Shown here: positions 6,234 through 31,089 of the stretch, in pieces
How the letters are laid out: each line of letters starts with the position of its first letter
Position numbering within the stretch: the stretch's first letter is position 1
Assembly (NCBI GenBank): GCA_947564525.1
Contig: CANOCK010000005.1
Coordinates: forward strand, 1 to 41,169
Length of the DNA stretch: 41,169 bases
Reading direction: 5' to 3'
Origin: an uncultured bacterium
GTDB taxonomy: Bacteria > Actinomycetota > Coriobacteriia > Coriobacteriales > Eggerthellaceae
Made by a program: the position numbers and the translations under genes
The notes under the pieces: model-generated
What the model was told of the DNA's origin: nothing
Database searches by the model: none
Seen by the model: the letters and a program-made list of their open reading frames with translations, nothing else

Positions 6234-8930
6234 TCACGCGCCGGCCACGGCCAGACTCACCGCATAGGAGAGCCTGGCCACGGGGGCGACGTCGCGGACG
6301 GGCGGGATGGCCAGGTCGGAGTCGAGCTCCAGGCCATAGGAGACCGGGATGCGGCCCGAGGCGTCCTTGGAAGTCGCAGCCGGGATGGAAAGGCCCGTGA
6401 GCGAGGCGGAGCCGGCAGCGCCCCCTGCCGTGAGCCTGGCCGTCTGGGACGAGCCGCCCTCCCCGAGCGTGGCCGTGAAGCGCACCTTGGAGGCGGAGCC
6501 CGCCCCGAAGATGGCCTCCAGCTCGGGAGCGCCGCCTGCAGGGTCGGGCGAGCCCGATGCGCCCAGCCCCTCGCAGGAGAGCGAGTCGAAGGCCACCGGT
6601 ACCACCATGTAGGAGAGGATGGCGCCCTCGGCCGAGGTGCCGGGGGCCACGCGCACCTGGCCCGTGAGCGAGTCCACTTCGAAGGCGACCAGGGCAAGAG
6701 GCGCTATCGGCACGTCAACGTCATAGCTAAGGGACCACTTGGCGTAGGCCGTCACGTCCTCGGTCGGCCCCTCGGCCTCGGCTACCCACCTGAGCTGCTG
6801 GTCGTAGAGCTGCTCCCCCTTGCCGCCCGGCTCGCTCCAGTAGCCGCGGAACACGTGGCCCTCCCGGACGGGCCTGGGCGCGACGGGCATCTTCACCTTG
6901 CCGTCGGCGCCCACCTCGTCGACGGCCGCCCGCACCGAGCCGTCGGCTCCGGGCTTCGCCTCCTCCGGGAAGCTCCCGCCGCCGGGGTCGAAGGCCACCT
7001 CGTGGCCGTAGAGGGGAAAGACGTAGAAGTCGTCGCCATCGCCGAGCGCCACCCATTCCTCCCCTGGCTCAAGGCGCGAGAGCTGCGTCGGGGAGGGCCC
7101 GGCCCAAACCGCGGCGAAGGGGCGGCCCTCCGCGCCGGCGGAGGTGGCCGCGACGCCCCCGTCCGACCACACGGCCCGGCTCTCGAGGACGCCATCGCGG
7201 AACCGGATGTGGGTGAACTGGTTGTGCGCCTCGCCCCGACGGACCCACTGGAAGGGGGCGAAGGCGGCCTCTACCCAGGCATCTCCGGACCAGCTGTACT
7301 GCGCCTTGGTGTCGAAGCGTTGGTACATGTCGCCGCCCTTGTCCCACTTGGCGTAGGCCGTCACGTCCTCGGTCGGCCCCTCGGCCTCGGCTACCCACCT
7401 GAGCTGCTGGTCGTAGAGCTGCTCCCCCTTGCCGCCCGGCTCGCTCCAGTAGCCGCGGAACACGTGGCCCTCCCGGACGGGCCTGGGCGCGACGGGCATC
7501 TTCACCTTGCCGTCGGCGCCCACCTCGTCGACGGCCGCCCGCACCGAGCCGTCGGCTCCGGGCTTAGCCTCCTCCGGGAAGCTCCCGCCGCCGGGGTCGA
7601 AGGTTATAAGCAAAAATGCATACAGATCACCGTCGATGCCACGCCACCCGAAGTCCTTCTCAACTTTGTTCAGCGTTGTTTCTGATTTTCCAATATATGC
7701 AGTTGTATAGTGCCATAGGCCTCCATTGGGCATGTACATCCATCTGCGATCATCGTCGAAGCCCCGCATGACCCAGAGAATTCCGCCTTCGTACTTGCAG
7801 GTCCTAATCTCTCCTGGATCACTTCCTCGACGCGACCAGGTGTAAGGCGTAAGCTTCGTGCAGCCTTGATAGGTGATCGTTCCGTTGAGGAACTCTTTGC
7901 CGTACATGCTGGAGGAATTCGTTTTCACGTACAAGCGATAGCCAGGCGCGTTACCCAAGGAACGTACTCCCAGCCCCAGATCATCAGAAGACATCCATAA
8001 CAACGTCTGGTCAATCGAGCTATACAGACAACCGTTCCGCGAGGAGAAGGCTGCGCTGCCCGCTTCCACGTCGATGGCGGACACGCCGGCCGAATGCGAG
8101 AAGCGCGACGGGTCCACCACCTCCGCTTCCTTGAGGATGCGGGCAGCGCCCTGCTTGCCCTCGGGAACGAGCAAGAGGCGTGTTCGGTCGGCATCGAAGA
8201 GCATGCCGTCGAAAGAAGATAGGTGGGGGTTGCCCTCGGCCACCTCGACCGAGGCGACAGAGGAGCCCTCGAAGGCGGCCTGGTCGACGGTCTCGACCGA
8301 GGCCGGCAGCACGACCATGGCCGCGTCGCACCCAGCGAGGGCGCGGGGGCCGATGGCGGCCAGGAAGTATTGGGAGCCGTCGTAGCTGACAGCGTCGGGG
8401 AGCGTCAGGGTCGCAGGCTCAATGGCGCCATCAGCGCCAGAGCTCGCCTCAGGGCCAGGCGCCGCGAGGCCTTCTGCCACGCCGACGTCGGAGCCCTCAT
8501 CAAGGCCAGCGTCCGAGCCACCCACCAGCCCATCGGCGAGCGTCTGGGGCGACACAGCCACCAGGGCCACCTCGCCTTCGCCTACGATCGCGTAGGTGAG
8601 GCCATCCACCGTGAAGGACCCGACGACAGGCTCGATGGCCTCGTCGTCGCCGTCCACGAGCGCCACGTCGGCGCTCAGGCGTAGCATACCATCCGACAAG
8701 TAGGCCGCTAGAGTGGAAACGTTGACAGACTCGGAGCTAGCAGCATCCGCCGCAAGCCCGGCGTCGCCCTGCCCGTCGGAGGCGTCATCAGCGCCTTCGA
8801 CAACGGGAGCATCCGAAGGCTCATCCGCCTTCGCAGGGGCGGTCATCGAAGCGGTCGCCAACATCAAGGCGACGAAAGTCAAGGCCAGCCTTCCCAGGGG
8901 CTTGGCCGGAGAGACGGCAGGGGCTCGCAT
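6234..8930 (-). CDS. Secreted BspA-like leucine-rich/Listeria-Bacteroides repeat surface protein (A)
   Basis: An 898-residue secreted protein. A signal peptide covers about residues 1-35 (basic MRAPAVSPAKPLGR, hydrophobic LALTFVALMLATA, then APAKA). Acidic low-complexity stretches follow. A BspA-type leucine-rich region covers about residues 165-300 (AAIGPRALAGCDAAMVVLPASVETVDQAAFEGSS). A cassette with no family I recognise covers about 298-442. Two nearly identical Listeria-Bacteroides (Flg_new) repeats at about 443-529 and 646-732 start FDPGGGSFPEEAKPG and end VTAYAKW; a unique 115-residue spacer separates them. A C-terminal beta-rich module covers about 733-898. No LPXTG motif and no C-terminal membrane helix are present, so the attachment mode is unknown. 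The ATG at 8930 has GGAAGGAG upstream. Protein B at 28363-31089 is a paralogue. The cassette (about 7604-8040) is visibly AT-richer than the rest. Role in adhesion or carbohydrate/host contact is inferred from the repeat types only. Confidence 0.88.
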   Translation of the reverse strand: MRAPAVSPAKPLGRLALTFVALMLATASMTAPAKADEPSDAPVVEGADDASDGQGDAGLAADAASSESVNVSTLAAYLSDGMLRLSADVALVDGDDEAIEPVVGSFTVDGLTYAIVGEGEVALVAVSPQTLADGLVGGSDAGLDEGSDVGVAEGLAAPGPEASSGADGAIEPATLTLPDAVSYDGSQYFLAAIGPRALAGCDAAMVVLPASVETVDQAAFEGSSVASVEVAEGNPHLSSFDGMLFDADRTRLLLVPEGKQGAARILKEAEVVDPSRFSHSAGVSAIDVEAGSAAFSSRNGCLYSSIDQTLLWMSSDDLGLGVRSLGNAPGYRLYVKTNSSSMYGKEFLNGTITYQGCTKLTPYTWSRRGSDPGEIRTCKYEGGILWVMRGFDDDRRWMYMPNGGLWHYTTAYIGKSETTLNKVEKDFGWRGIDGDLYAFLLITFDPGGGSFPEEAKPGADGSVRAAVDEVGADGKVKMPVAPRPVREGHVFRGYWSEPGGKGEQLYDQQLRWVAEAEGPTEDVTAYAKWDKGGDMYQRFDTKAQYSWSGDAWVEAAFAPFQWVRRGEAHNQFTHIRFRDGVLESRAVWSDGGVAATSAGAEGRPFAAVWAGPSPTQLSRLEPGEEWVALGDGDDFYVFPLYGHEVAFDPGGGSFPEEAKPGADGSVRAAVDEVGADGKVKMPVAPRPVREGHVFRGYWSEPGGKGEQLYDQQLRWVAEAEGPTEDVTAYAKWSLSYDVDVPIAPLALVAFEVDSLTGQVRVAPGTSAEGAILSYMVVPVAFDSLSCEGLGASGSPDPAGGAPELEAIFGAGSASKVRFTATLGEGGSSQTARLTAGGAAGSASLTGLSIPAATSKDASGRIPVSYGLELDSDLAIPPVRDVAPVARLSYAVSLAVAGA
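6735..6994 (-). repeat. 260-bp direct repeat, copy 1, inside surface protein A
   Basis: Identical to 7344-7603 at 259 of 260 positions; the single difference is base 6957 (c) against 7566 (a). The copies lie 609 bases apart in the same frame and encode one Flg_new repeat each. Such identity at the DNA level points to recent duplication or ongoing gene conversion. Confidence 0.97.
7344..7603 (-). repeat. 260-bp direct repeat, copy 2, inside surface protein A
   Basis: Second copy of the repeat at 6735-6994. The identity stops abruptly at 7603, exactly where the AT-richer central cassette of the gene begins, which suggests a recombination junction. Confidence 0.97.
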
Positions 8931-9160
8931 TGCACCCAGCTCCTTCCGCTATGAGGTTGTTCCCGCTGCGGAGGAGGCCAAGGCGCGCTCGAAGCTCTGA
9001 CGACTTGCAAAGAGGAAGGCATCCACCGCAGTCGTCAAACGCCAAGATTGCATGCAACTGGAATCGCTTCCAAGAAAATGCACCCTCGAATGGCAGATGC
9101 CCTCCAATTCATGCATTTTCCTAGATTCGAGAACTAGAGAAAACGGGTATTCTCTTGCAT

Positions 9161-9247
9161 GCAATTCCCTCTATGGGGAATCGGCGTTTGACGCTTGGGA
9201 ATATACCAAGCGCCCGGGGAGCGCGCAAGGGGGAATTTGGGAATTGC
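9161..9247. repeat. Inverted repeat, family member A (upstream of surface protein A)
   Basis: The outer arms GCAATTCCC and GGGAATTGC are perfect. The inner arms CGCTTGG and CCAAGCG close a GAATATA loop. A related but diverged arrangement (TTGCATGCA, ATTCCCTCT, then AGGGAATTGC) lies at 28034-28121 upstream of surface protein B, at a similar distance from that gene's start. Confidence 0.7.
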
Positions 9248-28035: not shown

Positions 28036-28121
28036 GCATGCAGAAAAATTCCCTCTTGCAGACCGGAAATGCGGTTGCTACACTCCCACCCAGGAAAAAA
28101 GCGACCCTTTCAGGGAATTGC
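28034..28121. repeat. Inverted repeat, family member B (upstream of surface protein B)
   Basis: TTGCATGCAG is followed by AATTCCCT (28047-28054), and AGGGAATT (28112-28119) closes the repeat. The order and words resemble the element at 9155-9247 (TTGCATGCAA, ATTCCCTCT, GGGAATTGC). The near edges lie about 224 and 242 bases from the starts of proteins A and B. Confidence 0.55.
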
Positions 28122-28362
28122 GAACAGTCGAATACCGGGATGCCAGCCTCGCTGCATTCGTCCTTTCAGGTAACCCGACGTGAAGAGGGTATCTGCCTTT
28201 CAAGACGCTGGGTTTCTGAAGGACATTCAGAACTGTTTGCAATCTTGCTTTTTTCCGATTGTGGTGGATACCCTCCTTACGTCGGCGCTTCCTTTACGCA
28301 GTGCCACCCGAGGACCTCCTCCGCAATGGTGTTCGCCATGCAATCGGAAGGAGCGTCCCTTC

Positions 28363-31089
28363 ATGAAGACCCGTGCTGCTTCTGCCTCCCATAGAGCCTC
28401 GCGCATCCTGACAGGAGTGACCCTCTGCGCCCTTCTGATCGCACCTGTTACCCCTTTCGCCGCAGCTAGCGAAGCCGACGACGCTGCCGCCCAGGGAGAC
28501 ATCCAGGGCAATGCTACGCCTCTGGCGAGCCAGCTTGCCTCCTCGGCGAACGACGAGAAGGCATATCAGGACGAGCATGGCGATGCAGCGGCGTTCGACG
28601 AGCTCCCTTCTCCGTTGGCTGCCTCGCAGCTCAGCCGCGAAGTGGCTCTTCAGCCGCTCACCGAGGATGGCTCCAGCGTGCCGCTGCTGGCCGACGCTTT
28701 GGCCGGCCAGCCCACCCGCTTCGTGAACCAAGAGGTTTCCCTCGACGGACAGGCCTCGGTGCTCGGGTCCTTCACCGTTGATGGCATGACCTACGCCGTC
28801 ACGGGCGACGGGACCGTCGAGCTCGTGGCCATTGCTTCGACCTTCCTTGCTAGCAGCTTGGCTACCGCTTCCGATAGCAGCTCCGATGGCGCCGAGGGCG
28901 AGGAAGTCCCCGAGCCTGTGGTCCTCGACGTCCCCGAATCCGTCGGGCATGACGGCATCACCTACTCCGTCACCTCCATCGGCCCTCGCGCCTTCGCCGG
29001 CTGCGACGCCGACGTCGTGCGCATCCCGGCATCCGTCGCCTCCGTCGACGAGGCCGCCTTCCGCGGCTCGTCGGTCGGTGGCGTCGAGGTTGCCGAGGGC
29101 AATCCCAACCTAGCTTCCTACGAAGGCGTCTTGTACGGCGCCGAGCTGAAAAGCCTCTTGCTCATTCCCGAGGGCAAGCAGGGCGCTGTCCGCATCCCCA
29201 AGACAGCCGAGGTCGTACCTGCCGACGCGTTCTCGCATTGCGCGTCGGTGACGGCGATCGAAGCGGATGCGGGCAGCGCAGCCTTCTCCTCGGAGGATGG
29301 GTGCCTATACGATGCCGAAGGCGCGCTGCTATACGCCCCCGAAAGCCAAGGGAAGGCCGGCCCGACCACACCCTCTCGCCATAAGTCAGAGGCACCGACC
29401 AGCGATCACGAAGACAAGGACGCCCTCTGTAACGAATACGAGCCTCTGCGTTCCTCTTTCCGCAGCACGACCAAGCTACCGCTGAATTACCTCTCGACCT
29501 TAGGGCGAGCTGCGGTTTCCCGTCTGAAAAGAACTCAAGACGTTACCTATCACGGCAATGGAGGACTCACCACCACCGGTGCCACCTCATTTACTCACAC
29601 TGTGCAATGGGAGTACGGAGAGCGTTTCACTCTATACCTACCCGGTGACTATGCTTTCATCAGAGATGGCTACTACCTTAAAGGATGGAATAGAAACCGT
29701 CCTCCCAGCGGCGATTACACTGAATACGCTATAGGCTATAACTATCACAAATCTCCGTACACAGACAGCGTTCCAGCTAACTGGTATGCCTCCTGGGGGC
29801 GCGGCTACACTATAAAGTGGGATGCGCGGGGAGGACGCGTCAGCCCCTCCTATACCAACATCCCGTTAGGGGGATTCACCACAGCTCCTACGCCCGAGCT
29901 CAAAGGGCACGATTGCGTCGGATGGGTCGACGAGGAGGAACCCCCGAACGTCATCGCTTCACCTGGCGACGAAGTTCCTTGCCCCGATAAAAACATCACT
30001 CTTTACGCCTCCTGGCAGCCACGGAGCTACACGATCAGCTTTGACCCCCAAGGAGGCGTGCTGGACAGCGTCGAGCCGATCACCGCTGTTTACGGATTGC
30101 CGCTGCCTGACGCCTCATCCTTCATACCCAAAAGAAGCGGCTATGCCTTCGAAGGATGGTTCAATCAGCCTATTGACGGGGAGAGGATGTACTCTTCAGC
30201 AGGAACGGCTTGCATGGACAAATGGGATACCGACTCAGACCTAACGCTCTATGCGCATTGGACGCGTCTCCCTCCGACGAGCATTGCGTACGAACTCGAC
30301 TCAGAGCCATTGGACGTGAACAGCAAAGGGCTATGGCCAACACCATACGAACCCCCAACGCTCCTCGAGGCGGATGCCGGCTTGGTGCCGCTCGCAACTC
30401 CCTTGCGCCCAGGCTATGCCTTCATGGGCTGGATGCCAGAGGGCCTTCCCAATGACGATGCGCTGCTCGCGAAGGGTCCTGACGGCACCTGGTCGCTCGA
30501 CACCGCCAAGCTGCCCGACTACGCAGACGCCGACAACTTGGTCACCTTGGTGGCGCGATGGTCGAGCGTCCTGTCGGTGGACGTGCCCTCGCTGGCCACG
30601 TTCCTCTACGACCTGAGCCGATTCGACCCGGACGAGCCCCGCACGGCCTACGCCGAGGGCGGCGCGCGGTTCCTCAACCGCAGCGCTGCCGACCTGCGGG
30701 TCTCGGGGCTGGAGAGCCGGCGTGGGGAAGCCGCCGACGCGCTCTCCCTGGCCGACCCGAGCCCTGGGGGCACCAAAGTGCTCGCCGCCTTCCCTGACGA
30801 GGAGGGCACGAGCGCATCCCTCGATGCCGCCAAGGGGCCTGCAGGCGCGTTGCCCGCGCATGCGGTCTCCTTCTCCCTGGACGACGTGCTGCTGGAAGCC
30901 GCCTTCGACCCCATGGCTTGGAAGGTGCCCGCCAGCGGCATGCTGGAGGTGGGCTATCGGCTCAACCTCGGGGAAGGCGCCTCCCTCGACCCGAGCGCCC
31001 TGCTGGCCTCTGGGGCGCTGCCTGACGGCGCGAACCACGGCCCTGGCGTCACGATCGCCACCATCACCTACTGCTTCGCGCTGGCCTAG
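28363..31089 (+). CDS. Secreted BspA-like leucine-rich/Listeria-Bacteroides repeat surface protein (B)
   Basis: A 908-residue secreted paralogue of protein A. The signal peptide is residues 1-31 (MKTRAASASHRASR, then ILTGVTLCALLIAPVTPFAAA). An acidic region follows. A BspA-type leucine-rich region covers about 130-323 (SIGPRAFAGCDADVVRIPASVASVDEAAFRGSS), closely matching A. The central part (about 343-736) has at least three Listeria-Bacteroides repeats (TYHGNGG...YLKGWN, ISFDPQGG...FEGWF, RPGYAFMGWM), each ending in Y-A-(S/H)-W or similar. The C-terminal module (about 737-908) is related to that of A and ends VTIATITYCFALA without LPXTG or an anchor helix. The ATG at 28363 has GGAAGGAG nine bases upstream; the frame is open back to 28180. 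The central DNA is AT-richer than both ends. Binding or adhesion is an inference from repeat type. Confidence 0.87.
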   Translation: MKTRAASASHRASRILTGVTLCALLIAPVTPFAAASEADDAAAQGDIQGNATPLASQLASSANDEKAYQDEHGDAAAFDELPSPLAASQLSREVALQPLTEDGSSVPLLADALAGQPTRFVNQEVSLDGQASVLGSFTVDGMTYAVTGDGTVELVAIASTFLASSLATASDSSSDGAEGEEVPEPVVLDVPESVGHDGITYSVTSIGPRAFAGCDADVVRIPASVASVDEAAFRGSSVGGVEVAEGNPNLASYEGVLYGAELKSLLLIPEGKQGAVRIPKTAEVVPADAFSHCASVTAIEADAGSAAFSSEDGCLYDAEGALLYAPESQGKAGPTTPSRHKSEAPTSDHEDKDALCNEYEPLRSSFRSTTKLPLNYLSTLGRAAVSRLKRTQDVTYHGNGGLTTTGATSFTHTVQWEYGERFTLYLPGDYAFIRDGYYLKGWNRNRPPSGDYTEYAIGYNYHKSPYTDSVPANWYASWGRGYTIKWDARGGRVSPSYTNIPLGGFTTAPTPELKGHDCVGWVDEEEPPNVIASPGDEVPCPDKNITLYASWQPRSYTISFDPQGGVLDSVEPITAVYGLPLPDASSFIPKRSGYAFEGWFNQPIDGERMYSSAGTACMDKWDTDSDLTLYAHWTRLPPTSIAYELDSEPLDVNSKGLWPTPYEPPTLLEADAGLVPLATPLRPGYAFMGWMPEGLPNDDALLAKGPDGTWSLDTAKLPDYADADNLVTLVARWSSVLSVDVPSLATFLYDLSRFDPDEPRTAYAEGGARFLNRSAADLRVSGLESRRGEAADALSLADPSPGGTKVLAAFPDEEGTSASLDAAKGPAGALPAHAVSFSLDDVLLEAAFDPMAWKVPASGMLEVGYRLNLGEGASLDPSALLASGALPDGANHGPGVTIATITYCFALA

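Follow-up and report, generated by a model that had tools for sequence, protein, structure and literature searches.

A mosaic family of surface proteins in an uncultured Eggerthellaceae bacterium is preceded by a pseudoknotted leader RNA, probably a new class of cis-regulatory RNA

The window, by which we mean the whole stretch of 41,169 nucleotides that was analysed, contains the genes of two paralogous proteins, A and B, on opposite strands (Table 1). Protein B consists, in this order, of a signal peptide, an N-linker, a leucine-rich repeat (LRR) cassette, a variable segment, Listeria-Bacteroides (List-Bact) repeats and a C-terminal beta-rich domain. An initial annotation had taken A and B for a mosaic pair with a common leucine-rich region and a common C-terminal module on either side of unrelated, AT-richer centres, set in otherwise housekeeping surroundings. 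These surroundings were recognized again, with NusA and a PGDH-type dehydrogenase identified by Pfam and RuvC-like and SDR-like proteins by eye. The cassettes of A and B share 53% identity (E about 1e-53 to 1e-55) over a block that contains the motifs GSFTVDG, IGPRA-AGCD, VAEGNP, PEGKQGA and GSAAFSS, as had been described. Past the cassette, the GC content is indeed lower, at 51% in A and 56% in B versus 69% in the window.

Table 1. Features of the two surface-protein genes and their leaders, with the G-tract loci found elsewhere in the family.
Feature	Position	Strand	Evidence or remark
Protein B	28363..31089	+	ORF, 908 aa, secreted surface protein
Protein A, paralogue of B	6234..8930	-	ORF, 898 aa
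Constant LRR_5-like cassette of B (aa 133-316)	28759..29310	+	common to 49 paralogues
Constant LRR cassette of A (aa 102-303)	8022..8627	-	A-B comparison
Variable AT-richer segment of B (aa 317-478)	29311..29796	+	singleton type among 39 members
List-Bact (InlB B-type) repeats of B	29800..30267	+	PF09479 E=1.4e-20; TIGR02543
List-Bact repeat copy 1 of A	7344..7604	-	86 aa identical to copy 2
List-Bact repeat copy 2 of A	6735..6995	-	counterpart of copy 1
Sigma70-type promoter of B, TTGCAG - 17 nt - TACACT	28056..28084	+	conserved across members
Sigma70-type promoter of A, TTGCGC - 17 nt - TATATT	9200..9228	-	promoter-like site
Structured leader RNA of B (P1, P2, P3, P5, pseudoknot P7)	28086..28285	+	CM R1 134.7 bits; covariation
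Structured leader RNA of A	9005..9198	-	CM R1 158.4 bits
P1 5' arm of B leader	28093..28102	+	pairs with 28247-28256
P1 3' arm of B leader	28247..28256	+	pairs with 28093-28102
P3 5' arm of B leader	28118..28128	+	pairs with 28232-28242
P3 3' arm of B leader	28232..28242	+	pairs with 28118-28128
P7 pseudoknot 5' strand of B leader, GAGGGUAUC	28185..28193	+	covariation
P7 pseudoknot 3' strand of B leader, GAUACCCUC	28267..28275	+	covariation
Anti-Shine-Dalgarno CUCCUCCG of B leader	28316..28323	+	predicted to pair with the SD
Shine-Dalgarno region CGGAAGGAG of B	28345..28353	+	predicted to pair with the anti-SD
G-tract loci L092, L052, L089, L091, L090, L093			members C101, C2_21204, C27_6257, C22, C28, C99

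The proposal that the centres are unrelated held for the stretch right after the cassette, but not for the List-Bact (InlB-type) repeats, which are present in both proteins. B scored 73.6 bits with PF09479 (cut-off 27); A gave a weak match of 26 bits with this model and scored 36.3 with TIGR02543, above the cut-off of 20.95. By these two models, A and B both qualify as List-Bact repeat proteins. A BLAST comparison of A with B over the repeat region gave E=6e-5. Since both proteins have homologous repeats, their centres are not wholly unrelated. The initial annotation had named two observations that would speak against its reading, an absence of other members and homology between the centres; homology was found for the repeat domain only and not for the post-cassette segment. 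The C-terminal module fared less well: the likeness between A and B is weak there, the two belong to different C-terminal clusters, and the C-termini of the family form a few types rather than one. The two 86-aa repeats of A have the same protein sequence and 99.6% DNA identity, which suggests a very recent internal duplication or conversion. With the LRR_5 model PF13306, B scored 24.9 bits, just below the gathering score of 27.7. The AF2 model of B was of low confidence overall (mean pLDDT 58.9), confident stretches being predicted just at about residues 185-325 and 480-640, and the variable segment had a pLDDT below 50.

A search of the source assembly for further members, as the initial annotation had advised, yielded 49 ORFs carrying the N-terminal cassette, so that A and B are confirmed as paralogues, though of a family much larger than a pair. 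These ORFs total 156 kb, about 8% of the assembly, which is a fragmented MAG of 1.93 Mb in 175 contigs (86% complete) in which many members stop at contig edges. Pairwise comparisons were made with the 39 members that had enough sequence. The cassette aligned in 741/741 pairs with a median identity of 59%, whereas the 150 residues that follow it were alignable in 123/741 and formed 22 clusters (one of 17 members, one of 2 and 20 singletons), in agreement with the idea of constant ends and interchangeable middles. The last 170 residues, compared in 24 members, formed four clusters of 12, 8, 3 and 1. Among the 17 complete members, LRR_5 was found in 14 (E<0.001) and List-Bact repeats in 16. In one sub-group (G000:C53, C39, C45, C29, C62, C100, C55 and C20), the cassette is present twice, the second copy being divergent and lying about 290-340 residues past the end of the first.

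We considered the possibility that the likeness of A and B reflects plain duplication and drift without recombination, the mosaic blocks being artefacts of short-read assembly. The fragmented state of the MAG would fit this explanation, as would the same-genus assembly G001, in which just 12 short exact blocks (40-54 bp) were found among 20 extracted members. Yet, seeding with exact 40-mers revealed 609 common blocks between otherwise divergent members of the source genome; near-identical blocks reach 462 bp, many mosaic blocks sit inside long ORFs, and donors change along a single gene, as in C100, where blocks match in turn C113, C53, C29 and again C113. Furthermore, the types of cassette, centre and C-terminus combine in mixed fashion across members. 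Because near-identical blocks between divergent members switch donors in this way, the sequences support diversification of the family by segmental recombination among dispersed copies, to be confirmed with long reads, and we consider duplication and drift alone unlikely. Most of the near-identical blocks lie in coding sequence (595) and few in the leader (14), which indicates that coding parts are exchanged while leaders stay gene-specific. In a cassette tree, the copies of the source genome and those of G001 were separated by one branch (support 93/57), as would be expected from separate expansion or homogenization.

With respect to the proteins, we see a new expansion of domain types that are already known. 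Like BspA-type LRR_5 proteins (PF13306), they are secreted and form a large paralogous set, with a cassette match to LRR_5 in 14 of the 17 complete members; in place of a long LRR array, they have one short cassette followed by List-Bact repeats. They share these repeats (16/17 members) with the Listeria-Bacteroides repeat/internalin B-repeat proteins (PF09479, TIGR02543), from which they differ in organism and architecture, and the NCBIfam internalin model gave 33.9 bits versus 1600, far under its cut-off. The variable parts of these surface proteins may serve in binding.

A feature absent from the initial annotation, which we rank above the protein mosaic, is an RNA leader common to A and B. 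Alignment upstream of the start codons of the family genes revealed a promoter-like site of the TTGCAN-17-TATANT type, with a leader of about 265-300 nt between this site and the start codon, in which the ribosome-binding site GGAAGGAGC is conserved. Inverted repeats of 13-22 bp lie at a fixed distance upstream of many members and, taken by themselves, could be DNA elements, namely invertible promoters or recombination sites. However, the repeats do not enclose the promoter, the inner segment keeps one orientation in 39/39 members, the repeat arms are gene-specific and covary, and the region also contains a Shine-Dalgarno (SD) hairpin. The fixed orientation, the outside promoter and the gene-specific covarying arms led us to reject an invertible promoter, and DNA elements of either kind are very improbable.

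The inverted repeats were examined as arms of an RNA fold. The leaders of 39 members were aligned, and the 5' arm of each member was paired with its own 3' arm or with the arms of other members. For P1, the own arm was the best partner in 37/39 members (z=23.5), and the own arms were also favoured in P3 (z=14.7), P5 (z=15.4) and the P7 extension (z=10.2). The P6 hairpin gave no signal in this test (z=-1.6) and is therefore not claimed. When pairs were counted in fixed columns of a 29-sequence alignment, 91% of cells were paired versus 76% after shuffling, and 205 cells were doubly changed versus 60; sliding the partner columns by 1-3 positions lowered pairing to about 41-45%. Across genera, P1 was paired in 99.8% of cells in 48 distinct sequences, with 381 doubly changed cells versus 97, in an alignment fitted to the model, which biases these counts. 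P7 joins a loop strand (GRRGGGCAUC) to a strand located 3' of P1 (GAUGCCCUYC) and hence forms a pseudoknot. Complementary strands of this type were present in 72/72 distinct sequences, a generous count since it takes the best match in each sequence, the fixed-column counts being stricter; compensatory versions include GAGCAUC/GAUGCUC, GGACAUC/GAUGUCC and GGGUAUC/GAUACCC. P5 and the distal P7 extension overlap in some bases and both covary, which suggests that the leader RNA may adopt two alternative states.

Downstream of the pseudoknot, a predicted helix between CUCCUCCG and CGGAAGGAG covers the ribosome-binding site and is near-invariant in the family. SD complements in other genera averaged 9.3 versus 7.6 in shuffled spacers and was individually above shuffled (p<=0.05) in 12/31. 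In view of this predicted SD/anti-SD pairing, the element is read as a putative translational switch.

The source genome contains 45 copies of the leader, as determined by alignment, CM search and inspection: those of A and B and 43 others. Nearly all of them head family genes, several copies stop at contig ends, and a leader is found upstream of 40/49 family ORFs. The core motif was counted 46 times in this genome and 0 times with the reversed control. At one locus, L202 (G000:C3:8053-8254, minus strand), a complete leader and ribosome-binding site are followed by a family start that is cut after about 12 codons and joined to sequence also present near the start of G000:C67, possibly an insertion or repeat element. 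CM R1 detected 34 copies in G001, a species of the same genus (uncultured Eggerthellaceae MAG), and three copies were found in Adlercreutzia caecimuris B7. Within the order, 52/395 genomes had matches, in 31/123 genera and three families, other genera having mostly 1-4 copies per genome; in a sample of 198 genomes of the phylum, R1 found none outside the order. The range outside the genus is based on R1 and is a lower bound, and the scores there are modest (about 22-80 bits). Pattern matches in Fictibacillus and a deltaproteobacterium, which had no R1 support, were treated as chance.

In other genera, 35 copies are followed by an ORF that begins 16-300 nt past the RNA, and most of these ORFs have a ribosome-binding site. 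A simple rule based on hydrophobicity classes 24 of them as encoding membrane proteins, secreted proteins or lipoproteins. The domains encoded downstream comprise LRR_5 (twice), LRR_4, choline-binding repeats, CHAP plus a ricin-type lectin and fn3/PPC, as well as SHOCT membrane proteins (one with a signal peptidase domain), PASTA, SPFH, MFS, OmpA and AAA. As judged from these predicted products, envelope function is the commonest theme. Genes for EcoRI-type adenine methyltransferases follow the leader at L134, L181 and L193, in three genomes, two being recognized by Pfam and the third by eye; such a target was unexpected next to the envelope genes. The downstream genes of other genera are so varied that no pathway names a ligand.

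No Rfam 15 family matched the window, 10 further loci of the source genome or the leaders of 12 loci from other genera, the one match below cut-off being to the unrelated c4-2. The leader RNA was also undescribed in the literature searched, from which the 2017 survey of 224 motifs was left out, and its novelty rests mainly on Rfam. Collinsella-1 RNA (RF01700) is likewise a candidate structured RNA of gut Actinobacteria, surveyed without a cis-regulatory role (PMC2864571); it is in Rfam, yet our leader RNA gives no match. With translational riboswitches, the leader shares its 5' position, a conserved pseudoknotted core and a predicted SD/anti-SD hairpin. It differs from them in being present, in one genus, at 34-45 copies per genome before a single gene family. 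Conserved structure backed by compensatory changes and placement in a 5' leader, from a promoter-like site to the start codon, are among the marks of a riboswitch, and both are present here. We nevertheless list the RNA as a candidate for an unlisted class of structured cis-regulatory leaders and do not file it as a riboswitch; it is probably a new, riboswitch-like class of cis-regulatory RNA.

A second mode of control may exist in members outside the leader-bearing group. Six of these (Table 1) have a run of 8-11 G directly past the signal peptide, which, as assembled, leaves one in frame (C28) and five out of frame. Only six places in the genome have at least 10 G in a row, and three of them are in these members. 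As in poly-G contingency loci, the leaderless sub-clade thus has G8-G11 tracts in and out of frame, which is consistent with slipped-strand phase variation. In contrast, such tracts are absent from A, B and the leader-bearing members, and A and B are not classed as slipped-strand contingency loci.

Taken together, these data point to a large repertoire of secreted LRR/InlB-repeat surface proteins that is specific to the lineage and has diversified through segmental recombination among dispersed copies; the N-terminal cassette is constant, the centre varies and the C-termini are of few types. In most members, A and B included, a sigma70-type promoter of their own would drive transcription through a leader of roughly 270 nt, which folds into the probably new pseudoknotted cis-regulatory RNA. 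Computation supports directly this fold with its covariation, its place from the promoter-like site to the start codon and, in the genomes searched, its confinement to one order. In this RNA, the P5-loop strand GRRGGGCAUCUGCC is predicted to pair with GGUGGAUGCCCUYC, just 3' of P1, and the hairpin downstream of the pseudoknot to mask the SD sequence. A common signal, be it a small ligand, a protein or something else, would shift these pairings, so that translation of the repertoire would go up or down together, presumably to the benefit of the cell. As a whole, this model of a recombining surface repertoire under a pseudoknotted leader RNA and a common translational signal is the best explanation, and we hold it with good confidence.

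More specifically, the leader could be a new riboswitch class, confined to one order of gut and termite Actinomycetota, whose ligand is a small molecule related to the envelope or the host and which was copied to more than forty loci in one genus, where one signal would set translation of the whole mosaic repertoire. This proposal is tentative, and we come down slightly on the side of doubt. We also weighed the possibility that the leader is a true structured RNA that does not sense a ligand: it could be bound by a regulatory protein, pair through its conserved loop with a small RNA acting in trans, or have a role in temperature response or stability. The varied downstream genes and the long, stable, variable helices would fit such a function, and the loop, conserved in sequence, could serve as a target for a protein or small RNA. 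However, a conserved pseudoknot and a junction-like core together with SD masking, as predicted for this leader, are the usual layout of a riboswitch, and the element is conserved across three families of the order, mostly at low copy number per genome. A leader that does not sense a ligand is a serious candidate, though one that we lean against.

With its unusually strong covariation, this uncatalogued structured RNA lends itself readily to the search for a ligand. Because A. caecimuris B7 is a named strain with a genome record and three copies of the leader, tests of function need not await culture of the source organism. DNA inversion and tract slippage are the more frequently described means of co-ordinating surface repertoires; amplification of the leader to 34-45 copies would tie an RNA switch to the co-ordinated control of a recombining surface repertoire.
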